Below, piece by piece: positions 33,326 through 48,311 of a stretch of DNA of 64,000 nucleotides. The notes below the pieces were generated by a model that was not told the origin of the DNA, ran no database searches, and was given only the letters and a program-made list of their open reading frames with translations. The first letter of the stretch is position 1. The number at the start of each line of letters is the position of its first letter. The position numbers and the translations under genes are program-made. This DNA comes from Ideonella sp. (GTDB lineage: Bacteria > Pseudomonadota > Gammaproteobacteria > Burkholderiales > Burkholderiaceae_C): assembly GCA_015075545.1 (NCBI GenBank), contig JABTUC010000001.1:496001-560000 (forward strand). The letters are read 5' to 3'.

Positions 33326-34576
33326 ATGCAGACGAACCTGAGCGCCGAGTTCAAGGGCACGCGCGACGGCGATGCCGCCGAGGCGATCCTGCGCAAGTGC
33401 GTGCACTGCGGCTTCTGCAACGCCACCTGCCCGACTTACCAGCTCCTCGGCGACGAACTCGACGGCCCGCGCGGCCGCATCTACCTGATGAAGCAGGTGC
33501 TGGAGGGCGAAGCGCCGACGCGCGTCACGCAGCTCCACCTCGACCGCTGCCTGACCTGCCGCAACTGCGAGACCACGTGTCCGTCGGGCGTGCGCTACGG
33601 CGAACTGCTCGACATCGGCCGCCAAGTCGTCGAGCAGCGCGTCGAGCGTCCGGCGCCCGAACGCGCCGCGCGTTGGGCGCTGAAAGAGGGCATGACCTCG
33701 GCGCTGTTCAAGCCGGCGCTCGGGCTCGGCCGGGTGGCGCGCGCGTTCCTGCCGGGCACGCTGCGCGACAAGCTGCCGCGCGACGCCGGCGCGCGCGCGC
33801 ACCGCTGGCCGACGCGCCAACACCCGCGCAAGGTGCTGCTGCTGCTGGGCTGCGTGCAGCCGGCGCTCGCGCCCAACATCAACTCGGCCACCGCGCGCGT
33901 GCTCGACGCCTGCGGCATCCAGACCCTGGTGGCCGACGGCGCGGGCTGCTGCGGTGCGTTGCGCACGCACCTGGCCGACCGCGAAGGCGGGCTGGCCGAC
34001 ATGCGGCGCAACATCGACGCCTGGTGGCCGCTGGTCGAAGGCCTCACCGGCGCGGGCCGCGTCGAGGCGATCGTGATGAACGCGTCGGGCTGCGGCGTGA
34101 CGGTCAAGGAGTACGGTCACGCGCTGGCGCACGACCCGCGCTACGCCGAGAAGGCGCAGCGCGTCAGCGCGCTGACCAAGGACCTGAGCGAGCTGCTGCC
34201 CGAGCTGGTGCCAAAGCTCAAGCCGCGGCTCGCGCTGGCGGCGGGGGCGCCGCGCCGCCTGGCGCTGCAGAGTCCGTGCACGCTGCAGCACGGGCAGCAG
34301 TTGCGCGGCGGCATCGAGGCCGGCCTGCGCGAACTCGGCTTCGAAGTCGAGCTGCCGCTCGACAGCCACCTGTGCTGCGGCTCGGCGGGCACCTACTCGG
34401 TGCTGCAGCCCGAACTGGCGCACCGCCTGCGCGATCGCAAGCTCGCCGCACTCGGCGCACTGAAGGCGCGCGCGATCGTGTCGGCCAACATCGGCTGCAT
34501 CCAGCACCTGCAGGCGGGCACCGCGACGCCGGTGCGGCATTGGGTCGAGGTGGTCGACGAGGCGTTGACGGGCTGA
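33326..34576 (+). CDS. glcF: Glycolate oxidase iron-sulfur subunit
   Basis: The 416-residue protein has two N-terminal 4Fe-4S motifs, CVHCGFCNATCP and CLTCRNCETTCP, followed by two CCG domains (GAGCCGALRTHLAD and HLCCGSAGTYSVLQP). It transfers electrons from the GlcD/GlcE flavins to quinone at the inner membrane. The start is ATG 33326. It is the last gene of the glcD-glcE-methyltransferase-glcF unit and converges with minE, with a strong hairpin between them. Confidence 0.94.
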   Translation: MQTNLSAEFKGTRDGDAAEAILRKCVHCGFCNATCPTYQLLGDELDGPRGRIYLMKQVLEGEAPTRVTQLHLDRCLTCRNCETTCPSGVRYGELLDIGRQVVEQRVERPAPERAARWALKEGMTSALFKPALGLGRVARAFLPGTLRDKLPRDAGARAHRWPTRQHPRKVLLLLGCVQPALAPNINSATARVLDACGIQTLVADGAGCCGALRTHLADREGGLADMRRNIDAWWPLVEGLTGAGRVEAIVMNASGCGVTVKEYGHALAHDPRYAEKAQRVSALTKDLSELLPELVPKLKPRLALAAGAPRRLALQSPCTLQHGQQLRGGIEAGLRELGFEVELPLDSHLCCGSAGTYSVLQPELAHRLRDRKLAALGALKARAIVSANIGCIQHLQAGTATPVRHWVEVVDEALTG

Positions 34577-34643
34577 GCCCTTGGCCGCTCGCCGGTGCGG
34601 ACACCCGAACCGTCGCCACCCGCGGCATCCTCTCGACACGACC

Positions 34644-34668
34644 CGCCGTCGGCGCAACCGCGACGGCG
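34644..34668. terminator. Hairpin between convergent glcF and minE
   Basis: CGCCGTCG (34644-34651) pairs perfectly with CGACGGCG (34661-34668) across a nine-base loop. It lies 68 bp after glcF and 28 bp after minE, so it could end transcripts from both sides. No U-tract is present. Confidence 0.4.
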
Positions 34669-34695
34669 GCGCCGGAGCCCGCTTTCGGAGTTCGC

Positions 34696-34959
34696 TCAGC
34701 GCGCCGCCTGCGGCAGCCGCACCCGGACCTCGAGCACCTGCTTGTTGTCGTGCCGGCGCTGCATCTGCACCTGCACGTCGCCCGATGGCACCTTGACGTA
34801 CTTGGACACCACGCGCGCCAGCTCGCGCTGCAGCGCGGGCAGGTAGTCGGGCCGCTGGCCGCGCGCCGCGCGCTCGTGCTCGACCACCGCGAGCAACCGC
34901 TGCTTGGCGAGCTGCGCCGACTTCTTGTTGCGGCCGAACAGCAACGACAACAGCGACAT
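34696..34959 (-). CDS. minE: Cell-division topological specificity factor MinE
   Basis: The 87-residue protein begins MSLLSLLFGRNKKSAQLAKQ, an amphipathic membrane-targeting helix. The anti-MinCD region AKQRLLAVVEHERA and the C-terminal dimerisation domain YLPALQRELARVVSKYV follow. It drives MinD off the membrane to place the septum at mid-cell. Its ATG directly abuts the minD stop with no spacer, so translation is probably coupled. Confidence 0.95.
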   Translation of the reverse strand: MSLLSLLFGRNKKSAQLAKQRLLAVVEHERAARGQRPDYLPALQRELARVVSKYVKVPSGDVQVQMQRRHDNKQVLEVRVRLPQAAR

Positions 34960-35781
34960 CTAGGCTCCCGCGCGCGCGAACAGGCGCTGGAACAGCGTGG
35001 GCCGCGCGGCCTCGGTGAAGCGCATCTCGCGGCTCTCGCCGAGGAAGCGGCGCACCACGTCCTTGTAGGCCTCGGACACCGCACTGGCCTTCATGTGGAT
35101 CGCCGGCACGCCCTGGTTCGACGCGTTGAGCACGGTCTGCGACTCGGGCACCACGCCGATCAGCGGGATGCGCAGGATGTCTTCGATGTCCTGCACCGAG
35201 AGCATCGCGCCGCCGGCCACGCGGGTGGGGTCGTAGCGGGTGATCAGCAGGTGCTCCTTCACGGCTTCGGCGTTGTCCATCGCGCGCTGCGTCTTGGCCG
35301 CCAGCATGCCCAGGATGCGGTCGGAGTCGCGCACCGACGACACCTCGGGGTTGGTGACGACGATCGCCTCGTCGGCATAGCGCATCGCCAGCAGCGCGCC
35401 GCTCTCGATGCCCGCGGGCGAATCGCAGACGATGTACTCGAAGCCCATCTGCGCCAGCTCGTCGAGCACGCGCTTGACGCCCTCGGCGGTGAGCGCCTCC
35501 TTGTCGCGCGTCTGCGAGGCGGCGAGGATCGACAGGTTGTCGCAGTGCTTGTCCTTGATCAGCGCCTGGCTCAGCTTGGCCTCGTCGTGGATGACGTTGA
35601 TGAAGTCGTACACCACGCGGCGCTCGCAACCCATGATGAGGTCGAGGTTGCGCAGGCCAACGTCGAAGTCGATCACCGCGGTCTTGTGCCCTCGCAACGC
35701 GAGCCCGGAGGCGAAGCTGGCGCTGGTGGTGGTCTTGCCGACGCCGCCCTTGCCCGAGGTCACGACGATGATTCTCGCCAT
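34960..35781 (-). CDS. minD: Septum-site-determining ATPase MinD
   Basis: The 273-residue ParA-type ATPase has the deviant Walker A KGGVGKTTTSA (Lys11 and Lys16), switch I DFDVGLRNLD and switch II CDSPAGIESGA. The C-terminal membrane-targeting helix is RPTLFQRLFAR. Length and order minC-minD-minE are standard. A 43-bp spacer separates it from minC. Confidence 0.97.
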   Translation of the reverse strand: MARIIVVTSGKGGVGKTTTSASFASGLALRGHKTAVIDFDVGLRNLDLIMGCERRVVYDFINVIHDEAKLSQALIKDKHCDNLSILAASQTRDKEALTAEGVKRVLDELAQMGFEYIVCDSPAGIESGALLAMRYADEAIVVTNPEVSSVRDSDRILGMLAAKTQRAMDNAEAVKEHLLITRYDPTRVAGGAMLSVQDIEDILRIPLIGVVPESQTVLNASNQGVPAIHMKASAVSEAYKDVVRRFLGESREMRFTEAARPTLFQRLFARAGA

Positions 35782-35824
35782 CGCGATGCTGTCCTTTGCG
35801 CTGGTTGTGGGTGAGGGCGACCGA

Positions 35825-36544
35825 TCAGCCGGAGAGCGCCTCGACGATCAGCGTGTCGCCGTCGCGCCGCGCCATCGCGGCGCGCGCGTCGAGCGCGGCG
35901 GGCACCGCGGCCTCGCCGGTGCGGTAGACCCCGGCCACCGACAGCAGTTGCGCCTGCATGCAGGTGGTGTAGATGCGCGCGCCGGTGTCGCCCTTGGCGC
36001 CGGCCAGCGCACGGCCGCGCAGCGGCGCGTAGACATGGATGCTGCCGTCGGCGATCACCTCGGCACCATAGCTCACGAGCGCGAGCACGATCAAGTCGCC
36101 GCCGCGCGCGTAGACCTGCTGGCCCGAGCGCAGCGGCCTGTCGACGACAAGCGGCGGCGGCGCGGGCAATTGCACCTCGCGCACCTCGGTCATCAACAAC
36201 GGCGGCGCACGCGGCGCATCGGGCGCCTCGGCCAGCCCGGCGGCAGCGGCAGCGGCCATCTGCTCGGGGTTGCCGCCGCGCGCGGCCACCGGCACCAGAC
36301 GATGGCTGCGCAACAACTCGATCAACGCAACGAAATCGACCGGCTCGTCGGCCTCACGCACGCGCGAGAGGTCGATCGCCACCGGATCGCTGTCGAACAG
36401 CCCGGGCGTCGCGGCGACGCGCTCGGCCAGCTCGCGCTCGAGCACCGAGAGGTCGGTGGTCTTCAGCACCACCGCCACCAGCGTCAGCGCCGCGCTGCGC
36501 AGTTCGAGCGGAGACATCGACTTCGCGGCAGCGGCAACGGTCAT
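35825..36544 (-). CDS. minC: Septum-site-determining protein MinC
   Basis: The 239-residue protein has an N-terminal FtsZ-inhibiting domain (VAIDLSRVREADEPVDFVALIELLRSHRLVPVAARGG), a proline-rich linker (PRAPPLL, LPAPPPL), and the C-terminal beta-helix VDRPLRSGQQVYARGGDLIVL through GADGSIHVYAPLRGRALAGAKGD-type sequence, which binds MinD. It is the first gene of the min operon. A TAGAAT hexamer on the minus strand at 36574-36569 may be the -10 box; no good -35 is seen. The ribosome site before the ATG is weak. Confidence 0.93.
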   Translation of the reverse strand: MTVAAAAKSMSPLELRSAALTLVAVVLKTTDLSVLERELAERVAATPGLFDSDPVAIDLSRVREADEPVDFVALIELLRSHRLVPVAARGGNPEQMAAAAAAGLAEAPDAPRAPPLLMTEVREVQLPAPPPLVVDRPLRSGQQVYARGGDLIVLALVSYGAEVIADGSIHVYAPLRGRALAGAKGDTGARIYTTCMQAQLLSVAGVYRTGEAAVPAALDARAAMARRDGDTLIVEALSG

Positions 36545-36606
36545 GCGCGTGGGGGACGAAAGCTTTGGATTCTATCGGCCGCGCGCGGCGCGCGATCCCC
36601 CTAGTC

Positions 36607-36673
36607 GTGCATCGCGCAAGCCCTCTTGTGTGTCGGCTCGAAAGGCGGTTGCGTGCGCGCTCGCGCGATGCAC
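36607..36673. repeat. 11-bp perfect inverted repeat upstream of min
   Basis: GTGCATCGCGC (36607-36617) and GCGCGATGCAC (36663-36673) are exact complements with a 45-base loop. They lie between the min promoter region and the transporter fragment. No function is evident; they could mark the end of a small mobile element. Confidence 0.45.
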
Positions 36674-36695
36674 AGGGTGAGTCACTGCGCGCCGC

Positions 36696-36830
36696 TCATG
36701 CCGCGTGACCTTCGGCCGCTAGGGGTTGCGGCCTCGCACGCAGCGCCCAAGCCACGCCGGCGATCAGCAGCACGATGCCCAGCGCGCTCAGCGGGGCACG
36801 GTCACGCAGCGAACGATACGCCGAGCGCCG
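36696..36830 (-). pseudogene. 3' fragment of a DMT-family transporter gene
   Basis: Read on the minus strand, the last 33 or so codons match the intact transporter at 41807-42790: LSALGIVLLIAGVAWALRAR followed by PQPLAAEGHAA and TGA. Of this, 74 bp (36724-36797) are identical to 41835-41908, whereas the final ten codons differ at synonymous positions (CTAGCGGCC against CTGGCCGCT). Further in, homology is recognisable to about 36830 (TCGGCGCTCGGC) but the frame is broken by small indels. The rest of the gene is absent. The fragment forms the left boundary of the anomalous segment. Confidence 0.8.
36724..36797. repeat. 74-bp perfect direct repeat, left copy
   Basis: Identical to 41835-41908 and in the same orientation, 5,111 bp apart. 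It begins GGTTGCGGCCTCGC and ends GCGCTCAGCGGGGC. Both copies are the 3' part of a DMT transporter reading frame. The pair brackets the non-coding stretch and the radical SAM/dioxygenase cluster. Confidence 0.9.
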
Positions 36831-38472
36831 ACCGGCGCCGTAGCGCGCATGCAAGGCCGCCGCACCGATGGCACGGCGGATCGCGCTGGCGGTCGAGAAT
36901 CACCAAGACGGCCCAGGCAGCCACGTTCCAGAAGCGGCGCGAATGACTGATCGGATCATCGCCACGGCGGCGGCGGAGGCGCGCCGGGCTTCAGCGGACG
37001 ATCGCGGCGCTGACCTGCGCGGTGAGCGCAGACGCCGCGTGCGACTGGCGCGATCGGCGCGAGCGCCGATGGATATGGTCATCAGGCGGCGCTGCGCCGC
37101 CGCGCGCGGCCAGCACGCGCGCTGCAGCAGAGCTGTGCGACGCCGCGTGCCGGCGCCCACTGCGAGCGGCCGCGGTCTTGCGATGACGCGCCCAGCGTCG
37201 CACGACCCGGCCGCGCTCGCCTGCAGTCTGGCATGGTCACGCCTGCGCCATCCAGGCGCCAGACCAGCGCGCGGCACCTTCGGCGCAGGCGGCCGGTCCG
37301 ATGACGAGCCGGTTGCAGGCGCCGGCTCACCACCGGCATGCGGTGCACGCGGCTGGGCGCGCAGGCGCGCGCGCGCTTCGATCGCCGCGCGACTGCCCGC
37401 CAGCGCCGAGCAGACGGTCCGGGCACGCCCGATGGGGCGGCGACGTGAGCTCGCGAGTGGAGCGCCGAGCGCGCGTCGCCGCGGCGCGGGGTGATGGGCG
37501 CACGCGCCGTGCAGCCGACGTTACGCGCCGCGCTACGTCCCGGTAGGGCCCGGCCGATGGACGACAGGCACCAGCGGCGCGAGCGGCCATCGGCGACCGC
37601 GCCTCGGCGCCTGGCCGCAGCTCCGAGCGCGTCGACGCGATGCGCGTGCGGCGCAGCTGACCGGTCAACCCGCCGAGCGCGGCGTGGAGCGCGCGCCCGG
37701 CATCGGGCGCCGCCAAGCACGATGCGCAGCCTGGCAGCACGCCGCTGCGCGCGCAGGGCGGAGCTCCGCAGCGGCCGCCCATGGATGCGCGCGCCTGCAG
37801 CGCCTGAGCCGCCGTCACGCCCGTGCGCGGCGCCGTAGCTCGGCGCGCGCCGCCTCGTTGCCGACGTCGGGCATCCGCGCCACGTGCGGTATCGCGCCTC
37901 TTCACCCGCTGGGTCTGGCACGCCTACCGCGCTCGCGGATCGCGAGCTGGCGGCGCGTGAGCGGCCCGGTGGACGCTGGTCGCCGGCGGCGCTCGGGCGG
38001 TCGCGACGGTGCGCCCCGACGCGGCGCGCTGCAGCGCGGCTGCCGACGTCGCGCTGTGCGGCGCAGGCCGAGCGCAGCGCGGCGAGCGGCCGTGCGCCGC
38101 GGCGCTCGAAGGCCGCGCGCAGGCGGATCGATGCGGCGCTGGGTTCGTCAGCGCGAGCGCGGACGGGCAGATCACGCACGGTCCCCTGCGCGCGGCGCGA
38201 GAAGATGGACCTCGACGACGCTGGCGCCCACCGTCCGCCGCAGCTTCAGGATCGACGGCCGAGCGACGCTGGTGGCCGCGGCGCGCCGCGCCGGCGACGC
38301 CGCGGTGCGGCATGACGATGCCGGCGCGCCGGCGCGCCGGCGCTGCACGCCAGCTGGCGAATTGGCGGCCGCGCGCGACGCGCGCGCGCCACCGGGCGGC
38401 GGACGAGGATGGTGCGCCGAGCGCCGGCCTGGCACCGCCGCGCGCAGGCGTCGGTGATGCCGTGGCGCCGCC
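36831..38472. other. About 1.6 kb without recognisable genes, anomalous composition
   Basis: None of the six frames gives a protein with recognisable motifs or normal residue use; the open frames are all Arg/Ala/Pro-rich. CpG density looks even higher than in the surroundings, and short dyads are common, e.g. GGCGGCG/CGCCGCC at 37085-37101, GAGCCGG/CCGGCTC at 37306-37328 and repeated GGCGCGCC at 38331-38342. The usual third-position GC periodicity of nearby genes is not apparent. The region could be decayed foreign DNA or a poorly resolved assembly stretch. Nothing functional could be identified. Confidence 0.6.
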
Positions 38473-39162
38473 TGGGACGACGCGTTCACCGTGAAGCCGG
38501 CGCGCCTGCTCGAGCTGTGCGCTGCGTTCGAGCGGAGCTTTGATTTCCGTTTCGGCTTCAGCGCGATCACGCGCGCCAACCTCGTCACGCCGGAGCTGCT
38601 CGCCGCCATGCGACGTGCGGGCCTGGTGCACGTCAACTTCGGCGTCGAGAGCGGCGACGACCGGATTCTCGCCGCGATCAAGAAGGGCATCCGCACCGAC
38701 CAGGTGGTGCGCGCGCTCACCTGGGCCAAGGAGCTGGGTCTCGCCACCGCGTGCAACTTCATGCTCGGGTTTCCGCAGGAGGACGAGGCCGCGGTCGAGC
38801 GGACGCTGCGCTTCATGGAGAGCATTGCCCCGCTTACCGACACGTTCAGCACGCTCGGCGTCGTGGTGCCCTTCCCCGGAACGCCGATCTACGACGACTA
38901 CCACCTCGAGTACGGCTTCACCGATTGGTGGCTGCAGGAAGACTTCAGCCGCTACGCGCCGCCGCCGCCCATCGAGGAGCGCGAGGCCTTTCATCGTTAC
39001 TACACGGACGACGCGAACCTGGGGCTCGACTTCTTCCGCTACGGTCCAGGGATGCGCGAGTTGATCCGGGAGGGCCTGCGCTTCAAGGCCGAGCACAACC
39101 TGAAGGCGATGGGCCTGCTGCCCGACCCGGTGTTCCGGCCGGTCCCAGCGATGGCGCAATGA
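38473..39162 (+). pseudogene. 5'-truncated B12-type radical SAM protein, C-terminal part
   Basis: Homology begins abruptly at WDDAFTVKPARLLELCAAFE, a segment that in BchE-like radical SAM proteins lies in the middle of the SAM barrel. It continues with RANLVTPELLAAMRRAGLVHVNFGVESGDD, NFMLGFPQEDEAAVERTLRF and VVVPFPGTPIYDDY, ending AMAQ. An in-frame TGA at 38455-38457 closes the frame just upstream, so the B12-binding domain and the CxxxCxxC iron-sulfur motif are missing. The retained 223 codons (from GTG 38491) cannot form an active enzyme. Its stop overlaps the methyltransferase start as ATGA, showing that it was once the head of this operon. Confidence 0.8.
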
Positions 39163-39959
39163 CCGGCTGGGACCATCCCGCCACGGCAGAGCGCTACGAG
39201 CGCTTCAACCAGCGCCACGCGCGCTACCGGCGTGCCAATGACGTCCTGGTGCGCGAAGCGGCGCTGGTCTCCGGACTGCGAGTGCTCGACTTTGGCGCCG
39301 GGACCGGGCGCACGGCGTCGGCGGCACTCGGGCGGCTGGGGCGGCACGGTAGCGTCGTCTGCGTGGAACCGGCCGCAGCCATGCGTGAGGCTGGGCAGCG
39401 CCGGCTACGGGACTCCCGCGTAACCTGGCGGGGCGCTCTCCCGGAGGAGCCCGAGGCGTTCGACCGCGTGCTCGCGGGCGCGGTCGTCTGGCAGCTCGAT
39501 CCCTTCAGGGAGTCGATCGCCCGTCTCGTCGGCCTGCTGCGGCACGGGGGCGCGCTCGCCTTCGACATCCCGGCACTTTACTTGGGCGAGCCCGACGAGC
39601 CGGGCGGCGGCGATGATCCACTGCTCCTCGACTTGGTGGCGCGGCTGGCCGAGGGTCGCCCCGCCGATCGCGAGGGTTCGGGGCTGCCGCGGGCGGCAGG
39701 TGCTCGGCGCTTCACACCGGCGGACGTGGAGGCGGCGCTTCGCTCCGCCGACCTCCAGCCCCGATCGTGGGCGTTTCGCCAGCGCCTGACGCAGACGGCG
39801 CACGCCCGCTGGCTCACGATTCCCGTGCTGACGGACGGGCTCCTGCCCGGCGTCGCCCCAGTCGAGCGTGACCGGCGGATCGCGCGCGCCCTCGCGCTGG
39901 TCGACCGCAAGTCGTTCAAGTGGGAACGATGGCGGGGGTGGACGGCATGGAGACCTTAA
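39159..39959 (+). CDS. SAM-dependent methyltransferase of the acquired cluster
   Basis: The 266-residue class I methyltransferase has motif I LRVLDFGAGTGRTASA (residues 40-55) and the acidic end of strand 2 in VVCVEPAAAMRE. The post-II region AGAVVWQLDPFRES and the post-III region RHGGALAFDIPALYLGE follow. Leucine is often CTC and glycine often GGG, unlike neighbouring host genes, where CTG and GGC dominate. It overlaps the radical SAM fragment by four bases and the next gene by 13. Substrate unknown; context suggests tailoring of a small molecule. Confidence 0.85.
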   Translation: MTGWDHPATAERYERFNQRHARYRRANDVLVREAALVSGLRVLDFGAGTGRTASAALGRLGRHGSVVCVEPAAAMREAGQRRLRDSRVTWRGALPEEPEAFDRVLAGAVVWQLDPFRESIARLVGLLRHGGALAFDIPALYLGEPDEPGGGDDPLLLDLVARLAEGRPADREGSGLPRAAGARRFTPADVEAALRSADLQPRSWAFRQRLTQTAHARWLTIPVLTDGLLPGVAPVERDRRIARALALVDRKSFKWERWRGWTAWRP

Positions 39960-40705
39960 ACGCGACCACGCTCCCGCCGCTGGCGGATGTCACGGACTGT
40001 GCGTCCGAACCCGCCGCGCTGCGTGCCGCCCTCGGACGTGACGGCTACCTCTTCATCCGGCGCCTGGTGCCAGCGAAGCGTGTCGCGCGGCTGCGACGGC
40101 TGGTCCTGGACCACGCGCGCTGCGTATCGTGGCTCGATGCCGCCGCCGGCATGGACCAGGCGCGGGCGGCAACGGGCATCCGCGTGGGCGACTACCAAGC
40201 GCCCGAGTGGATGGCGCTGCAGGAGCGGGTCCAGTCGAGTGACGAGTTGTGGGCCGTGGGTGACGCCCCTGACATCCACCGCGTCCTGACCGCGGCATTC
40301 GGCAGGCCGAGCTTCCTGTTCCTCGGGATGAACACCTGTCGGGTGGTCTCACCCCACCCCGAGCTGGCGGCGCGCCTGCATCAGGACACACACTACGTCC
40401 GCCTGCCGGACGAGTTCGTGACGGTCTGGGTGCCGCTGGGCGACTGCCCCGTCGCGCTCGGGCCGCTCGCGGTGGTGCCCGGCTCGCACCGGCGCGGACT
40501 CCTGCCGCACCACGGCGTGGGCATCGTCGATGGCGGCGTGGACGTCGAGGACGATGTGGTCTGGCACTCGGGCGATTTCGCCTGCGGCGACGCGCTCGTC
40601 CTGAGTCGCCTCACGATCCACCGCGCGCTCCCCAACCTGAGCGGCCACACCCTGCGCCTCTCGGCGGATCTGCGCTATGGGTTCCGCAACAGCGATGCGG
40701 GGTGA
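39947..40705 (+). CDS. Phytanoyl-CoA dioxygenase-like protein 1
   Basis: The 252-residue protein belongs to the Fe(II)/2-oxoglutarate oxygenases of the PhyH type. The metal triad is visible as His145 and Asp147 in RLHQDTHYV and His225 in LTIHRALPN, with a candidate 2-oxoglutarate Arg237 in TLRLSADLRY. The strand LGPLAVVPGSHRRGLLPHHG is typical of the family. It begins RDGYLFIRRLVP after a short leader. The start ATG 39947 lies inside the methyltransferase 3' end. It is a paralogue of the second dioxygenase in the cluster. Substrate unknown. Confidence 0.87.
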   Translation: METLNATTLPPLADVTDCASEPAALRAALGRDGYLFIRRLVPAKRVARLRRLVLDHARCVSWLDAAAGMDQARAATGIRVGDYQAPEWMALQERVQSSDELWAVGDAPDIHRVLTAAFGRPSFLFLGMNTCRVVSPHPELAARLHQDTHYVRLPDEFVTVWVPLGDCPVALGPLAVVPGSHRRGLLPHHGVGIVDGGVDVEDDVVWHSGDFACGDALVLSRLTIHRALPNLSGHTLRLSADLRYGFRNSDAG

Positions 40706-40856
40706 CCAACCGGGAGCACCGGGCAGACGCGTCGACGTGTGCCAGTTCGACGGCGCCGCCACCGCCGAGACGTTCGCCGCCGGCTGGTTGCACGCCGCGG
40801 ATGCCAAGACGCGCGCCACGGTGGTAGTGCAGATCCCGGAGCCGGCCGTCGCGTGA
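40695..40856 (+). CDS. Small ORF of 53 codons between the two dioxygenases
   Basis: ATG 40695 lies 11 bases inside the end of the first dioxygenase gene, and the stop TGA (40854-40856) overlaps the GTG start of the second, the same GTGA coupling as elsewhere in this string. The product begins MRGDQPGAPGRRVDVCQFDG and continues with ETFAAGWLHAADAKTRATVV; it is soluble and has one cysteine. I do not recognise a family. Its exact fit between two genes argues for translation; it could be a small partner protein or the remnant of a larger gene. Confidence 0.5.
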   Translation: MRGDQPGAPGRRVDVCQFDGAATAETFAAGWLHAADAKTRATVVVQIPEPAVA

Positions 40857-41629
40857 GGACGCTGCTCGATTGCACGGCGCTGACCGGCGATCCCGACGCC
40901 CTGCGCTCCCAGGCCATGCGAGACGGTTGCCTGTTCCTGCGCGGCATCCCGGGCGCCGAGGCGGTGGCGCCGCTCGCGGCATTGGTACGCCAGGTCGCGG
41001 AGGCGCTCGGGTTCGTGCTGCCCGACGCGGAAATCCGCTCGCCGCCATGCGTGCGCCCCGGGGCGGCGCTCGACGGCACGGGGTACGACGACCCGCGCTG
41101 GCTCGAGTTGCAGCAGCGGGTGCTGCCCGACCCCCGCTTCGCTGCCGTCGGCGACCACCCGGAGTTGCTGCGGGTGATCGAGATCCTGTTCGGCGAGTCG
41201 CCCCTGACCCGCCGTGGCGACATCTGTCGCATCGCGCTCCCTGGGGCGCCGCACCTGACCACGCCACCGCACCAGGACCATTGGTACACGGGCGGGTCCA
41301 TGAATCTCTGGACGACGTGGATCGCGCTGTCCGACGCGCCCCTGGAGCTGGGTCCGCTCGCGGTGCTCCCGGGCTCCCACCGCGCGGGGCTCCTGCCGCA
41401 CGGCGGCGAGGGCGCCGGGCGGCAGGGAGTGCACGTTCCGGACGCCTCAGAGTTCGCGGCGGCGCCCCTCGTCGCGGGCGACTCCATCCTCTTGAATTGC
41501 CTCACGGTCCACTGCGCGCTCCCGAACCTCACGCGCGATCGCGTCCGCGTCTCCGTGGACTACCGCTACCAGCCCGCGAGCGAGCCGATCCACGTGGCCC
41601 GCGTTGACGGGACTCGCGCGGGCCCGTGA
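40853..41629 (+). CDS. Phytanoyl-CoA dioxygenase-like protein 2
   Basis: The 258-residue protein starts at GTG 40853 (VRTLLDCTAL) and is a paralogue of the preceding dioxygenase. The Fe(II) ligands are His140 and Asp142 in PHQDHWYTGG and His220 in LTVHCALPN, with Arg232 in VRVSVDYRY as the likely 2-oxoglutarate anchor. DAPLELGPLAVLPGSHRAGLLPHGG matches the equivalent strand of protein 1. Codon use is again CTC- and GGG-rich. The two copies probably arose by tandem duplication and then diverged, so they may hydroxylate successive positions of one substrate. Confidence 0.87.
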   Translation: MRTLLDCTALTGDPDALRSQAMRDGCLFLRGIPGAEAVAPLAALVRQVAEALGFVLPDAEIRSPPCVRPGAALDGTGYDDPRWLELQQRVLPDPRFAAVGDHPELLRVIEILFGESPLTRRGDICRIALPGAPHLTTPPHQDHWYTGGSMNLWTTWIALSDAPLELGPLAVLPGSHRAGLLPHGGEGAGRQGVHVPDASEFAAAPLVAGDSILLNCLTVHCALPNLTRDRVRVSVDYRYQPASEPIHVARVDGTRAGP

Positions 41630-41733
41630 GCACTCAGCCGCGGCACGCCGCGAGAGCCCTCACGAACGGCTCCGCCCAGTTGATCGCGGTGAAGCGGTGC
41701 AGCGCGGCGCCAAGAACGTCAGCACTTCCGTGA
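41626..41733 (+). CDS. Short frame coupled to dioxygenase 2, probably a truncated gene
   Basis: A GTG at 41626 overlaps the dioxygenase stop by four bases (GTGA) and opens 35 codons (VSTQPRHAARALTNGSAQLI...). The coupling pattern matches the other junctions of this operon, which suggests it is the 5' end of a next gene cut off at the right junction of the acquired segment, about 75 bp before the transporter stop. No family is recognisable, so this is weakly supported. Confidence 0.25.
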   Translation: MSTQPRHAARALTNGSAQLIAVKRCSAAPRTSALP

Positions 41734-41806
41734 CGCACAGGAGTTTCGAACGTCCCTTGCAGTGCGGCAGAGCGCACCACCCCGAAGGCCCTCGCGCCGC
41801 AAGCCG

Positions 41807-42790
41807 CTATCCCGCGTGGCCTTCAGCGGCCAGTGGTTGCGGCCTCGCACGCAGCGCCCAAGCCACGCCGGCGATCAGCAGCACGATGCCCAGCGCGCTC
41901 AGCGGGGCGGGCCACTGGCCACGCAGCGCGAACGCATAGCCGAGCGCCGACAGCGTTTCGAAGACGATCAATTGCCCGGCCAGCGTGGTCGGCAAGCGCT
42001 GGCTCGCCTCGTTCCAGCACAGGGTGCCGAGCCACGAGGCGAACAGGCCGATCGCGAACATCAGCCCGGCGAAGAACCACGGCCTGGGCCCGAGCGGCAT
42101 CGCGAAGGAGTCGCCACGCCAGGCGGTGAACGCCCACCACAGCGCATAGCCGGCCAGGGCCAGCGGCAGCGTGGCCACGCCCTGCGCAGTGGCCCAGCCG
42201 CGCGGGTTGCGCCCGGCGTGCGCGCGCAGCCAGTCGGCGTTGCGGATCGGGTACCAGGTCCAGCACGCCACGGCGCCCACCGCGAGCAGCGCGCCGAGCG
42301 CATAGCGGCCGAGATCGGTGTCGGGCTCGGCGCGCAGCGCCTGCAGCTCGGCATGGTTGACGCAGGCGATGCCGGCGCCGATCAGCGCCAGCGACGGCGC
42401 GAGCTGCGCCCACGGCAGGCGGCCGTCGCGGCGCGCGTCGCGCAGGTTCGACGTGATCGCGATCACCACCGGCAGCGTGCCGATGATCATCGTCGGCAGC
42501 GGTCCGCCGGCGCGCTGGATGCTGCTCGCGAGGAACAGGTAGTAGACGATGTTGCCGATCAGCGCGAGCCTGGCGGCTTCGAGCCAGTCCTCGCGCGTCA
42601 GCGAGCGCAGCGCGCTGCGGTCGAGCCATGCCAGCGGCAGCGCGATCAGGCCGAACGCGAGGTAGCGCCCGAACGACTGCAGCGCCGCGGGGTACTCCGG
42701 CAGCAGCAGCGGGCCGACGAACACCAGGCCCCACATCAGCCCGGCGGCCAGCGCGAACAAAGCCCCGGAGACAAGCGACGCGCGCCCCAT
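41807..42790 (-). CDS. DMT-superfamily (EamA) transporter
   Basis: The 327-residue inner-membrane protein has ten predicted helices in two EamA repeats, beginning MGRASLVSGALFALAAGLMWGLVFVG and ending in a short tail LRARPQPLAAEGHAG. It exports or imports a small metabolite; the family includes amino-acid and nucleotide-sugar transporters, so the substrate is open. ATG 42790 is used; a GTG just upstream at 42793 is possible. A fragment of its 3' end is duplicated 5.1 kb to the left beside minC, and the two last-ten-codon tails differ only at synonymous positions plus the final residue. Confidence 0.9.
   Translation of the reverse strand: MGRASLVSGALFALAAGLMWGLVFVGPLLLPEYPAALQSFGRYLAFGLIALPLAWLDRSALRSLTREDWLEAARLALIGNIVYYLFLASSIQRAGGPLPTMIIGTLPVVIAITSNLRDARRDGRLPWAQLAPSLALIGAGIACVNHAELQALRAEPDTDLGRYALGALLAVGAVACWTWYPIRNADWLRAHAGRNPRGWATAQGVATLPLALAGYALWWAFTAWRGDSFAMPLGPRPWFFAGLMFAIGLFASWLGTLCWNEASQRLPTTLAGQLIVFETLSALGYAFALRGQWPAPLSALGIVLLIAGVAWALRARPQPLAAEGHAG
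41835..41908. repeat. 74-bp perfect direct repeat, right copy
   Basis: Identical to 36724-36797 and lies within the 3' end of the intact DMT transporter gene. It defines the right edge of the anomalous 5.1-kb segment. Outside the core, similarity continues toward 41960 with indels (CACGCAGCG, GCCGAGCGCCGAC). Confidence 0.9.
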
Positions 42791-42838
42791 CACGCCGCGA
42801 GTGTCGCCGATCGCGCGAGGTGCCCGTGCTCAGCGAGG

Positions 42839-43504
42839 TCAGGGCGCCTTCGCCACGCGCTGCGACGGCAGCTTCCAGGCGCCGGTCTTGATTTCGTCGT
42901 GCGTCAGCCGCCGCACCTCGACCGCTGACACGCCGCCGATGCGCAGCTTGCGCGCGGCGGCACGGCTCAGGTCGATGATGCGCCCCTTGACGAACGGCCC
43001 GCGGTCATTGACCTTGACCACCACCTGCCGCCCGTTGGCCGGGTTGCGCACCAGCGCGTAGCTCGGCAGCGGCATCGTCTTGTGGGCGGCGGTCATCGCG
43101 TTCATGTCGTAGCGCTCGCCGCTGGCGGTGCGCTTGCCGTGAAACGGCGCGCCGTACCACGACGCCAGGCCGCGCTCGAACATCGGCACGTCGGTGTGCT
43201 CGGGCTGGTAGCGCTGGCCCTTGATCTCGTAGGCGTGGTTCGGCGGCCCGCTGCGCAGCCGCTCGACGCGAGGCTTCGCCTCCAGCGGCGGCCGCTGCGG
43301 CTTCGGCGGCGCGGGCGGCTTCGTCAGTGCTGCCGGCGGCAGCACGACCGACGGCGGCACGACCGGCGGCGGCGCGGCCGGAGGCGGCGCGGCCGGAGGC
43401 GGAGCAGGCGGCTCGGGCGCCAGCAGGCCGCAGCCCGACAACGCCGCGGCCAGCGCGCCGGTTGCGAAGACGATGCAGCCGTGCCGCAGCGAACGCGAAT
43501 CCAT
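42839..43504 (-). CDS. rlpA: RlpA-type septal-ring lytic transglycosylase lipoprotein
   Basis: The 221-residue protein has a lipoprotein signal (ATGALAAALSGCG) and a long proline-rich linker (APPPAAPPPAAPPP, to about residue 75). The double-psi beta-barrel domain has RGLASWYGAPFHGKRTASGERYDMNAMTAAHKTMPLPS and VVVKVNDRGPFVKGRIIDLSRAAA, with the catalytic Asp and His regions of RlpA. It lacks the C-terminal SPOR domain of E. coli RlpA, so localisation to the septum may differ. It cleaves denuded peptidoglycan glycans. It is transcribed leftward, 48 bp before the transporter gene. Confidence 0.9.
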   Translation of the reverse strand: MDSRSLRHGCIVFATGALAAALSGCGLLAPEPPAPPPAAPPPAAPPPVVPPSVVLPPAALTKPPAPPKPQRPPLEAKPRVERLRSGPPNHAYEIKGQRYQPEHTDVPMFERGLASWYGAPFHGKRTASGERYDMNAMTAAHKTMPLPSYALVRNPANGRQVVVKVNDRGPFVKGRIIDLSRAAARKLRIGGVSAVEVRRLTHDEIKTGAWKLPSQRVAKAP

Positions 43505-43611
43505 CGCGGGTCACTGTGGTCAGCCCCGTCGCGTACAGGTGTTTCGAAGCGGTGTCAGCCGTGGCCTACGTGACCGGGCGCACGCCGATCGCCGCTGTTA
43601 CCGCGGCGCCC

Positions 43612-43637
43612 TTGACAGTGCGCGCGTTGGCTATGCT
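43612..43637 (+). promoter_or_regulatory. Possible promoter of glpK
   Basis: TTGACA (43612-43617) and TATGCT (43632-43637) lie 30 bp before the glpK start, but the 14-base spacer is shorter than the usual 16-18. The hexamers are good, the spacing is not, so a regulator may be needed or the match may be accidental. Confidence 0.3.
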
Positions 43638-43666
43638 TGGCGGGCCGCCGACGCGAGGAGACCCAA

Positions 43667-45169
<1,503 letters not shown>

Positions 45170-45230
45170 GGCCGGCCGCCGCAGCGCGCGGCTTCTGACA
45201 CCACGCTCAGCAGCGGTCGCGACGCCCAAG

Positions 45231-45329
45231 GTCGCGCTGCCGCCCGGCGCGGGCCATTTCGCGTACGTGGCCAACACCGAGGGCAATCTGGCGGGCTGCA
45301 CGGGCTCGGATGGCGTCGCCTCGAGCTAG
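45231..45329 (+). pseudogene. Possible remnant of a beta-propeller gene 3' end
   Basis: An open frame ending at TAG 45327-45329 reads ALPPGAGHFAYVANTEGN followed by LAGCTGSDGVASS. The FAYVANT element resembles YVTN/lactonase-type propeller blades, but no start codon or complete blade is present. It lies in the 322-bp spacer after glpK. The rest of the spacer holds only the tandem repeat at 45405. Too short to be sure. Confidence 0.25.
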
Positions 45330-45404
45330 GGCCGCGCGCGGAACGGCAGCATGCGGGGAAGCAACCTGAGCGTCGGTGGCCCCTGAACCACGGGGATGGT
45401 CCGC

Positions 45405-45426
45405 GTCGTGTGACGGTCGTGTGACG
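45405..45426 (+). promoter_or_regulatory. 11-bp tandem repeat upstream of the lipoprotein protease gene
   Basis: GTCGTGTGACG occurs twice head to tail (45405-45415, 45416-45426). The 11-bp period is one helical turn, as in the sites of OmpR/PhoB-type response regulators. It lies 66 bp before the start of the putative metalloprotease gene, in the expected promoter region. Confidence 0.4.
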
Positions 45427-45491
45427 CTCAGCCGTCTAGCCTCAACCCGGACCGTCAACACCGCGGTGCACACGATCCGGGAACGTCAAAC

Positions 45492-48311
45492 ATGAACACT
45501 CAGTGTCTCTTGCGCAACGCCAGCATCGCCCTGCTGGCAGTCGCCCTGGCCGCGTGCGGCGGCGGCGACGAACCCGCACCCGGCAATCCGGGATCCACGG
45601 CGCGGCCGTCGACCCCCGCACCGGCCCCGACCCAAATCAACGTCTCACCGACACGCTTGAGCCTGGCACCGGGTCAAACCGCAAGACTGACCGCGGTCGC
45701 GGTCGACAACAGCGGCGCGCCGATCGCGGCCAGCGTCAGCTGGCAGAGCTCGGATCCTGCCAAGGTCGTGATCGAGAACAACGACACCGCGCGTGGCGTC
45801 GCCGAGGGCAGCGCGACGCTCACCGCAGTCAGCGGCTCGATCAGCAGCAGCCCGCTCCCGGTGCGCGTGGCCGCGCCGATCGCCAGCGCCGGGCTGATCG
45901 ACGCCGCACTCGCCGCCGGCACCATCGACGCGACCACCGCGCTCAAGTACAAGGTCTTCGCCGCCTACAACGATCCGCGGCTACCGTTCGAATACCTCGG
46001 CAACCAGCGGCCGCGCTACGAGAGCTACCTGGGCCAGCAGCTTGCGCTCGCGTTCCCGAAGCTGTCCGAAGCCGACCAGCGCGAGATGTCGCCGTTCATG
46101 CTGCCGCCGATCTACGAGGACAGCTGGCTCGGGCAGCGCGAAGCCGCTGCGCAGGCAGCATCGGATCCATCGCAATCCAAGGCCGCGAGCAACGGTCGTG
46201 TGAGGCCCCTGGCCGATGCGCGGCCAGTGTGTTCGGGCCGCATCACGCGCGGCTGGGAGAAGGTCGACAGCGAGCACTTCCGCGTCTGGTTCAACCAGGC
46301 CAAGTTCCCGCAGGACGCCAGTGCCGCGGCGACCACGGTCGCGTTCCTCGAGGGGGCTCATGCCAAGCTGGTGGCGCTGGGCATGCGGCCGCCCGTCTCG
46401 GACGATGACCTCGACTGCAACGGCGGTGACGGTCGCTTCGACTTCTATCTCGTCGAATCCGGGACATGGGGCGTGGGTCCTGACGGGAACGGAAGCACGG
46501 TCTTGGGCGGGGCGAAACCATTGGAGTCGGCGGGGTCGACGGTGCCGATGTTCATGGTCGTCATGCGAACCCTGGTGGGCACGAACCTCTTCTCCGGGAC
46601 CGTGGCCCACGAGTACATGCACGCGGTGCAGTCGGCGTACGAGAACAAGTTCAACCTGCCCGACGAGGCCCTAACCTTCCTCTCCGACGCGACGGCCGAT
46701 TGGGCGATCGACTACCTCGTCGACGCCTCCGACCCGGGCGTCAACGGCGAGCATTCGAGCGCCCCTGGCTTGCTGGACCACGCGGACACGCCGCTGTGGG
46801 CGCCGACCGACAGCAGCCTGAAGAACTACGGTAGCTATCTGTTCTTCCAGTTCGTCTCGAGGATGCGCAACGCCCAGGGCGCCAGCTACGGCGGGCCGGA
46901 AGCGATCAGGGACGTGTGGGCGTTGATCGCCGCGCAACCCAGCGACAGCCCGCCGAACATGCTGGCGGCGCTGAACAGGGCGCTGCCCCTCGGCCTGACT
47001 GCGACCTGGAACGATTTCTCGGTCGCTGCCTGGAACCAGGGGCCGGTCGACCGCTTCATGCAATTGGACGGGCTCACGCAAACCGCGAAAGTGGCCCGCA
47101 CCACTTCAATCGAATTCGGCACCGGCGCTGGCAGCGGCTTCAGGATGACGGGCAGCCCTGCCGAATACGACTGGCAGGTCGCAGGCGGCTGGAAGCCAGT
47201 TTGGATCCAAGAGTTGTCGTTCCGCATCGAACGCTTCCTGTTCCCGGATGACAAGGTGAGTACGCTCACCTTCTTCAACGGCTACACCTACGGCCTCAGG
47301 CGGGAAGCGGTCGGGTTCGCCGACCAGCGGTACAACCCGCCGAAGACACTCATGGCCGGCGACACGCTGCTGGCCTACACGCCGACCGCGCAAGAGCGCG
47401 GCGGCGGCCGCGACTTGACCGCGCTGATCAAGATCGGCGGCCAGTGGACGGTGGAGAACTGGCGCAACACCGCGACGCGCTTCTTCTGCCGTGAGCGCAA
47501 CGCCGAGAAGATCGAGGAACTCGTCCTGATCTACTCCAACGGCGCCTACACCGATACCCGGGGGGCCGAGCTCGAGGGCGACAACGCAATCGGGCCGGTA
47601 CCGATCGTGCAGTACGTCGGCGGGGTGCCGGCCGATCCTGCCGTCTTGCTGCCGACGGAGGAATCGAAACTGGTGGCGTCGGAGATGCCTTGCCACGAAA
47701 TGACGGGCACCGCCACCGGGCGCATCGCGGTCAGCGGCGGGTCGAACAACTTCACCGTCGAGAGCAGGCTCAGCGCCACGCTGCGTGGCCGCCCGGCCGG
47801 GGGCACCGTGCAGGTCAACGGTCGAACCGCCACCGGCCTGCCCGGTGTCATGTTCGAGACCGTGGCAGGCACGCACTCCGGCAGCGTCAATGGCGTGGTG
47901 GCCGCCTGCCGCGCGGCCCCGCTGGCGTTCAGTTCACCATTTCCTGGTCTGCCGAACGCGAGCTTCAGCCTGAATGCCAACTACCTGCCGGACGCGGCGG
48001 CCTTCGGCACGTACAGCGGCAGCGGCGACGCACTTCAGCTCGTCGCCTCGCCAGCCAGCGGCTGCACGGTGAGCAGCGCCGCCATCGAGTTGCCGGCTCC
48101 AAACGCCTACGACTTCGATGCGCTCTGGTACGCGAGCACCGCCGAGTCGCAGTTCAAGGTCGATCTCGTCAACCGCCGCCTGCAGCAGAGCAACGTCGAC
48201 GGTCCGGCGCCCTACACCGGCAGCTATCTCGGGCCGTTCGTCAACCGTTCGAGCTGGTGTTTCGTCGCCACGCGCGAAGGTCAGGCGCCGCCGGCAGGAG
48301 TCTGCCCTTGA
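45492..48311 (+). CDS. Large lipoprotein with Ig-like domain and HEYMH metalloprotease motif
   Basis: The 939-residue protein starts with a lipoprotein signal (LLAVALAACGGG, Cys22) and a Pro/Thr linker. A BIG2-type Ig-like domain covers about residues 48-125 (INVSPTRLSLAPGQTARLTA...SVSWQSSDPAKV). The central region contains HFRVWFN, DLDCNGGDGRFDFYL and TVAHEYMHAVQSAYE, with a zinc-binding HExxH at 373-377. It is followed 21 residues later by FLSDATADWAIDY, where gluzincins usually have Glu in place of Asp399. The C-terminal half is beta-rich with paired cysteines. It is probably a surface or periplasmic peptidase; the family is not one I can name. The neighbour is another lipoprotein of similar style. 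Confidence 0.8.
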   Translation: MNTQCLLRNASIALLAVALAACGGGDEPAPGNPGSTARPSTPAPAPTQINVSPTRLSLAPGQTARLTAVAVDNSGAPIAASVSWQSSDPAKVVIENNDTARGVAEGSATLTAVSGSISSSPLPVRVAAPIASAGLIDAALAAGTIDATTALKYKVFAAYNDPRLPFEYLGNQRPRYESYLGQQLALAFPKLSEADQREMSPFMLPPIYEDSWLGQREAAAQAASDPSQSKAASNGRVRPLADARPVCSGRITRGWEKVDSEHFRVWFNQAKFPQDASAAATTVAFLEGAHAKLVALGMRPPVSDDDLDCNGGDGRFDFYLVESGTWGVGPDGNGSTVLGGAKPLESAGSTVPMFMVVMRTLVGTNLFSGTVAHEYMHAVQSAYENKFNLPDEALTFLSDATADWAIDYLVDASDPGVNGEHSSAPGLLDHADTPLWAPTDSSLKNYGSYLFFQFVSRMRNAQGASYGGPEAIRDVWALIAAQPSDSPPNMLAALNRALPLGLTATWNDFSVAAWNQGPVDRFMQLDGLTQTAKVARTTSIEFGTGAGSGFRMTGSPAEYDWQVAGGWKPVWIQELSFRIERFLFPDDKVSTLTFFNGYTYGLRREAVGFADQRYNPPKTLMAGDTLLAYTPTAQERGGGRDLTALIKIGGQWTVENWRNTATRFFCRERNAEKIEELVLIYSNGAYTDTRGAELEGDNAIGPVPIVQYVGGVPADPAVLLPTEESKLVASEMPCHEMTGTATGRIAVSGGSNNFTVESRLSATLRGRPAGGTVQVNGRTATGLPGVMFETVAGTHSGSVNGVVAACRAAPLAFSSPFPGLPNASFSLNANYLPDAAAFGTYSGSGDALQLVASPASGCTVSSAAIELPAPNAYDFDALWYASTAESQFKVDLVNRRLQQSNVDGPAPYTGSYLGPFVNRSSWCFVATREGQAPPAGVCP

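Follow-up and report, generated by a model that had tools for sequence, protein, structure and literature searches.

The window, a 64,000-nucleotide stretch of the Ideonella sp. contig JABTUC010000001.1, carries between minC and rlpA a perfect direct repeat of exactly 74 bp (36724-36797 and 41835-41908; 5111 bp from start to start) that flanks extra DNA. Its coordinates, first given in an initial annotation of the region, were reproduced exactly. The left host flank is minC (35825-36544, minus strand; Pfam MinC_N and MinC_C) and the right host flank is rlpA (42839-43504, minus strand; Pfam DPBB_1; the gene name is that of the initial annotation). As had been described, the right repeat copy is found inside an intact transporter gene of the minus strand (41807-42793; 328 aa, Pfam EamA) and the left copy belongs to a transporter tail alone (36696-36797, minus strand), which lies beside minC in the same register and is made of the repeat and of variant last codons ending with a stop at 36696-36698. 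The repeat cannot be attributed to chance because a DNA search of the whole genome with segment 36600-38500 ranks the right copy, after the segment itself, far ahead of all else (E 1.5e-43); the remaining 18 matches listed have E values of 1.5e-7 or weaker. Of the 12 final codons, with the stop counted as one, seven differ between the two tails. Five of these differences are synonymous, as reported earlier for the tail ends, one exchanges a stop codon for another and one is Ala/Gly. The tails look like two real alleles because their differences are mostly silent, which would not be the case for random errors. The spacer between minC and the left tail (36545-36695) shares by alignment a sequence block with the minC/transporter spacer of G004, a genome of the same genus, so that the minC/left-tail junction looks native.

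The DNA between the repeat copies is composed of two very different segments. The first one (36798-38472) is garbled and lacks codon periodicity: about 50-60 bases of broken transporter reading are found at its start and a frame-broken 5' half of a radical SAM gene at about 37710-38465. The second one (38473-41629) is clean and encodes, all on the plus strand, the 3' half of the radical SAM gene (38473-39162, with an ORF called from 38491; Pfam Radical_SAM, profile positions 75-165 of 166), a methyltransferase (39159-39959; Pfam Methyltransf_11/12/25) and two PhyH dioxygenases (39950-40705 and 40853-41629; Pfam PhyH) that are 39% identical to each other. The initial annotation regarded 5.1 kb as foreign-looking DNA; the segment is not uniformly foreign, about 38473-41629 being clean coding DNA and 36798-38472 garbled, with a short stretch (41630-41806) between the cassette and the transporter. 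A frame of 56 codons without Pfam match is open on the minus strand between the cassette and the transporter (41634-41804, stop at its low end). It is possibly not a gene, as it stays open for only six more codons on the right. Segment 41627-41806 had no match at E<=1e-6 in the other genomes of the family sample (299 genomes). No integrase or mobility domain was identified among the proteins scanned, a subset of the open frames, in line with the earlier remark that an integrase is missing. No tRNA or tmRNA gene was found in 34000-46000 and no Rfam family in 36400-43700.

Some sequence features around rlpA were noted in addition. The sequence ACAGGWGTTTCGAA is found at 41737-41750 and 43535-43548, its sole two occurrences in the genome, 1.8 kb apart, and the copy upstream of rlpA is conserved in G004. 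A similarity over 33 bp between 41718-41750 and the rlpA/glpK spacer was discarded since its score (28, against 32 for the best match elsewhere) is at chance level. Further right in the window, 45492-48308 codes for a 939-aa protein whose only Pfam match is a Big_2 immunoglobulin-like domain.

The garbled stretch and its two edges

The period-3 codon signal is strong in the flanking genes and in about 38550-41550, and it is missing in about 36500-38550. Measured in 50-bp steps, the aperiodic run extends over 2150 bp (36451-38600), the minC/transporter spacer included. Across 28 further stretches of this genome, 560 kb in total, the longest such run measures 1000 bp, and 900 bp is reached by six. 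The GC content of 36860-38460 (0.781) is also above the maximum found in 1.6-kb windows of the same 28 stretches (0.779). The garbled stretch is thus unique among the sampled stretches of the genome. Eight of the 28 are the ends of 4 of the 13 contigs; one (L049) has an aperiodic run of 1000 bp located 3.3 kb from the end, and the seven others have no run of at least 1 kb. Since these contig-end stretches are clean apart from the L049 run, the assembly is not generally poor. A Pfam scan of nine open frames in the garbled stretch gave nothing above the curated cut-offs.

At the right edge the garbled stretch runs into the radical SAM gene. In the loci identified, those homologues that have a plausible start measure about 436-478 aa, and the clean frame of the window corresponds to the last half only. 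The first half was detected by tblastn with the homologues inside the garbled stretch, in the correct order and strand (E down to 3.5e-11). Frameshift-tolerant alignment gave z scores of 9.1-13.8 for four of four homologues, relative to 30 shuffled proteins each, and nothing on the opposite strand for the one homologue tested. When compared to five homologues, the garbled half has 15-24 frame errors and 44-49% identity, against 0-2 frame errors and 63-71% identity in the clean half; extra bases outnumber missing bases in the garbled half for all five. The change from garbled to clean sequence occurs at about 38473. The best family matches of the clean half are the NCBIfam B12-binding radical SAM families TIGR04014, ApyD, HpnJ and AprD4, but none of the scores comes near the curated cut-offs, which fits half a gene and a different subfamily. 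The protein of the window would, on this evidence, belong to none of these four types.

At the left edge the damage begins immediately after the 74 perfect bases, the next 44 alignment columns between the left and right copies featuring one mismatch and five gap events. The first 50-60 bases of the garbled stretch are taken as transporter. An extension anchored at the repeat and prolonged along the transporter reached a score that was equalled by 1, 2 and 7 of 1000 random genomic targets at 62, 100 and 200 bp, by 28 and 10 at 300 and 400 bp, by 1 at both 500 and 600 bp, and by none at 700, 800 and 850 bp. When the first 62 bases were subtracted, the gain was equalled by 393, 370 and 159 of 1000 targets at 200, 300 and 400 bp and by 13, 10, 9 and 2 at 500, 600, 700 and 800 bp, respectively. 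Among genome-wide fits the transporter placement ranked 53 for 36860-37160, 26 for 37000-37400, 2 for 37100-37600 and 11 for 36860-37600. Chunk 36798-37277 is best placed, in forward orientation, on the transporter, at rank 2 of 336 blocks; the ranks of the other chunks of the garbled stretch run from 4 to 202 of 336. Protein-level alignment did not detect the transporter significantly in the garbled stretch (z 1.0-1.4). Further transporter DNA is likely present beyond the first 50-60 bases, with moderate support at the DNA level. Two further readings of this sequence did not hold. A noisy copy of the whole transporter-to-rlpA segment in 36860-38480 scored 149, against a mean of 78 for 20 shuffles, but was withdrawn because real sequence at other places in the window scores 149 or more too (up to 191 among 232 targets). 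The genes upstream of the radical SAM homologues, considered for 36860-37640, gave two weak tblastn matches (E 0.006-0.007). The damage therefore starts in host DNA and ends in insert DNA, with a sharp stop inside a gene at both ends.

The cassette and the minC-rlpA place in other genomes

A search of genome contigs identified 14 loci with relatives of the radical SAM protein, nine of them at 64-71% identity. The nine are distributed over two Acidobacteria, two Bryobacterales, one Fimbriimonas, three Deltaproteobacteria and one Rhodocyclaceae MAG, the best relatives in this search being those of Acidobacteria and Deltaproteobacteria MAGs. The radical SAM, methyltransferase and PhyH genes are adjacent, in the same order and on one strand in eight of these loci (L051-L055 and L057-L059), and in the ninth (L056) the contig stops inside the radical SAM gene. 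As judged from these contigs, the order of the three genes is conserved across the taxa concerned. In the phylum of the Acidobacteria hit, 2 of 396 genomes match at E<=1e-60, one of which is the hit genome itself. Among 53 plasmid records, only radical SAM relatives of less than 60% identity were found, and the first PhyH protein had no relatives in the search of genome contigs. Judged from its gene families, the cassette would make or tailor a small molecule.

The initial annotation had proposed that an empty site in a related genome, with one transporter 3' end, would support an insertion. Such a site is found in G004, where minC is followed by 100 bp, the transporter gene, rlpA and glpK. 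It is the only one among the four genomes of the genus that have the transporter. In G005, about 2.7 kb separate minC from the transporter and include a gene of the Vgb_lyase family (L038, 2019-4779). In G003 the transporter is beside rlpA and the next gene encodes a protein with ferredoxin-type domains (11.3-kb contig; L039, 1-7230), and in G002 it adjoins rlpA (8.4-kb contig); minC was not found in either of these two contigs. G001 (68% complete) gave no transporter match, and neither minC nor rlpA is near the transporter in the stretch examined of G010 and G016, which belong to other genera. By this comparison the place beside minC is variable in the genus, because it is empty in G004 and other genes are carried by G005 and G003.

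Origin of the arrangement

The contig was probably spliced during assembly from two versions of the transporter locus. From minC, it would follow an insert-free version into the 3' end of the transporter gene (the left allele), then cross about 1.7 kb where transporter DNA and the radical SAM 5' half would have been joined without a sound consensus, and finally enter a second version where the radical SAM - methyltransferase - PhyH - PhyH cassette would lie beside the transporter of another allele. The 74-bp repeat would then be a single gene end seen twice, the two versions being laid end to end. Sequence quality collapses around the join, with loss of periodicity, frame errors on the insert side and gap events on the host side. 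The allelic look of the tails and the likeness of the minC/left-tail spacer to that of the empty site in G004 also speak for this reading. The assembly is presumably a metagenome-derived long-read assembly, since it has 13 contigs at 85% completeness. Poor reads and their assembly would have made the join, and the two versions of the locus would come from co-occurring related strains; some cells may carry the cassette at this locus. Four observations go against the splice. Perfect identity over 74 bp next to seven differing codons out of 12 is odd for two related strains, and the right join, at the transporter stop codon, has no demonstrable garbling. Beyond 36860 the transporter is only moderately supported in DNA, is not the best placement genome-wide and is null at the protein level. 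The eight contig ends sampled are clean with the exception of one 1.0-kb run.

Related artefacts are on record: errors of long reads are described as clustering in junk segments that cause misassemblies (PMC6833143), and an account of contigs misassembled on a single chimeric read is given in PMC7500977. The present case resembles those described there in that two sequences are joined via a very poor local stretch flanked by clean DNA. It differs in that the cases presented in these accounts were judged by reads and coverage, whereas here the sequence alone was used, and in that the contig returns to the same host gene.

A tentative extension of the splice, which we hold as possible rather than probable, is that the minC-transporter junction is a natural insertion site of the genus, which a cross-phylum cassette would truly have entered via the transporter 3' end from a sister strain. 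The population would hold empty and filled forms, and the contig would splice both.

The evidence does not establish the integration scar of a small genomic island proposed initially: the left junction is unreadable, and two alleles of one gene placed end to end are a simpler explanation of the repeat. The left copy is followed directly by the 1.7 kb of garbling, and of the two junctions the left one thus falls within 36798-38472, where no clean reading exists. A splice made in assembly accounts for this better than a duplication by integration. The copies, which an integration would have made identical, are so over 74 bp; past one end of this identity the readings are broken, and past the other the alleles differ. 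Of the initial interpretation, support is found for an empty site in a relative, for a cassette whose radical SAM gene is confined to this genome within the family and order samples, and for tails that look like two alleles, but not for the scar. Genomic islands integrated by homologous recombination present extra genes with a flanking direct repeat and an empty site in a relative. The locus is similar to them by the direct repeat around extra genes and by the empty site of G004, and it is dissimilar by the unreadable left junction, by repeat copies with different allele ends and by the absence of an integrase in the scanned proteins. A real island, with the cassette and the transporter 3' end of a related strain recombined in, the transporter end duplicated and the left part badly sequenced or assembled, is nonetheless the least unlikely of the alternatives. 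It is consistent with the empty site, with the variability of the place in the genus, including the 2.7 kb with the Vgb_lyase-family gene in G005, with the position of both joins at one host gene and with the allelic look of the tails. However, garbling appears just where the join is expected, and a true junction with even coverage would be expected to be as well corrected as the sequence around it. Moreover, the repeat is a host gene end, and neither a tRNA gene nor, in the proteins scanned, an integrase accompanies it.

It is also unlikely that the cassette comes from an unrelated community member, as a chimera without physical link to the genome. At E<=1e-20 the radical SAM gene has no match outside the window's own genome, neither in the 298 other genomes of the family sample nor in the 398 others of the order sample (the samples, of 299 and 399 genomes, overlap), and its best relatives belong to Acidobacteria and Deltaproteobacteria MAGs. 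The codon use of the four cassette genes is mildly atypical, 2.65% of host four-gene sets being equally far from the host mean. However, none of the four genes on its own falls outside the range of the host, 5-22% of whose genes are equally far, and dinucleotides differ weakly, to a degree matched by 7.1% of 168 host windows. Two false joins would also be needed, with the contig leaving and re-entering the host at the same gene. The splice of two locus versions is favoured over such a random chimera because a single gene is the point of both exit and re-entry and the two copies of its end represent different alleles. Real DNA decayed in place, that is a duplicated transporter and a radical SAM 5' half that rotted, would account for a half gene that is recognisable yet frame-broken, but is very improbable, as it would need sharp stops at 36797 and about 38472, 74 perfect bp followed within a few bases by broken sequence (not expected of a decaying duplicate), a foreign gene decayed in its first half alone with the rest of its frame open, and a GC content raised above every sampled 1.6-kb window.

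The locus is a warning that an assembly splice can mimic a textbook-looking integration scar. Such a splice can be exposed from sequence alone by the loss of codon periodicity and by a frame-broken homologue at the join. If the insertion is real in part of the population, it would be of modest interest. A by-product of the analysis is a conserved, perhaps mobile cassette whose clean copies in other genomes are open to study.
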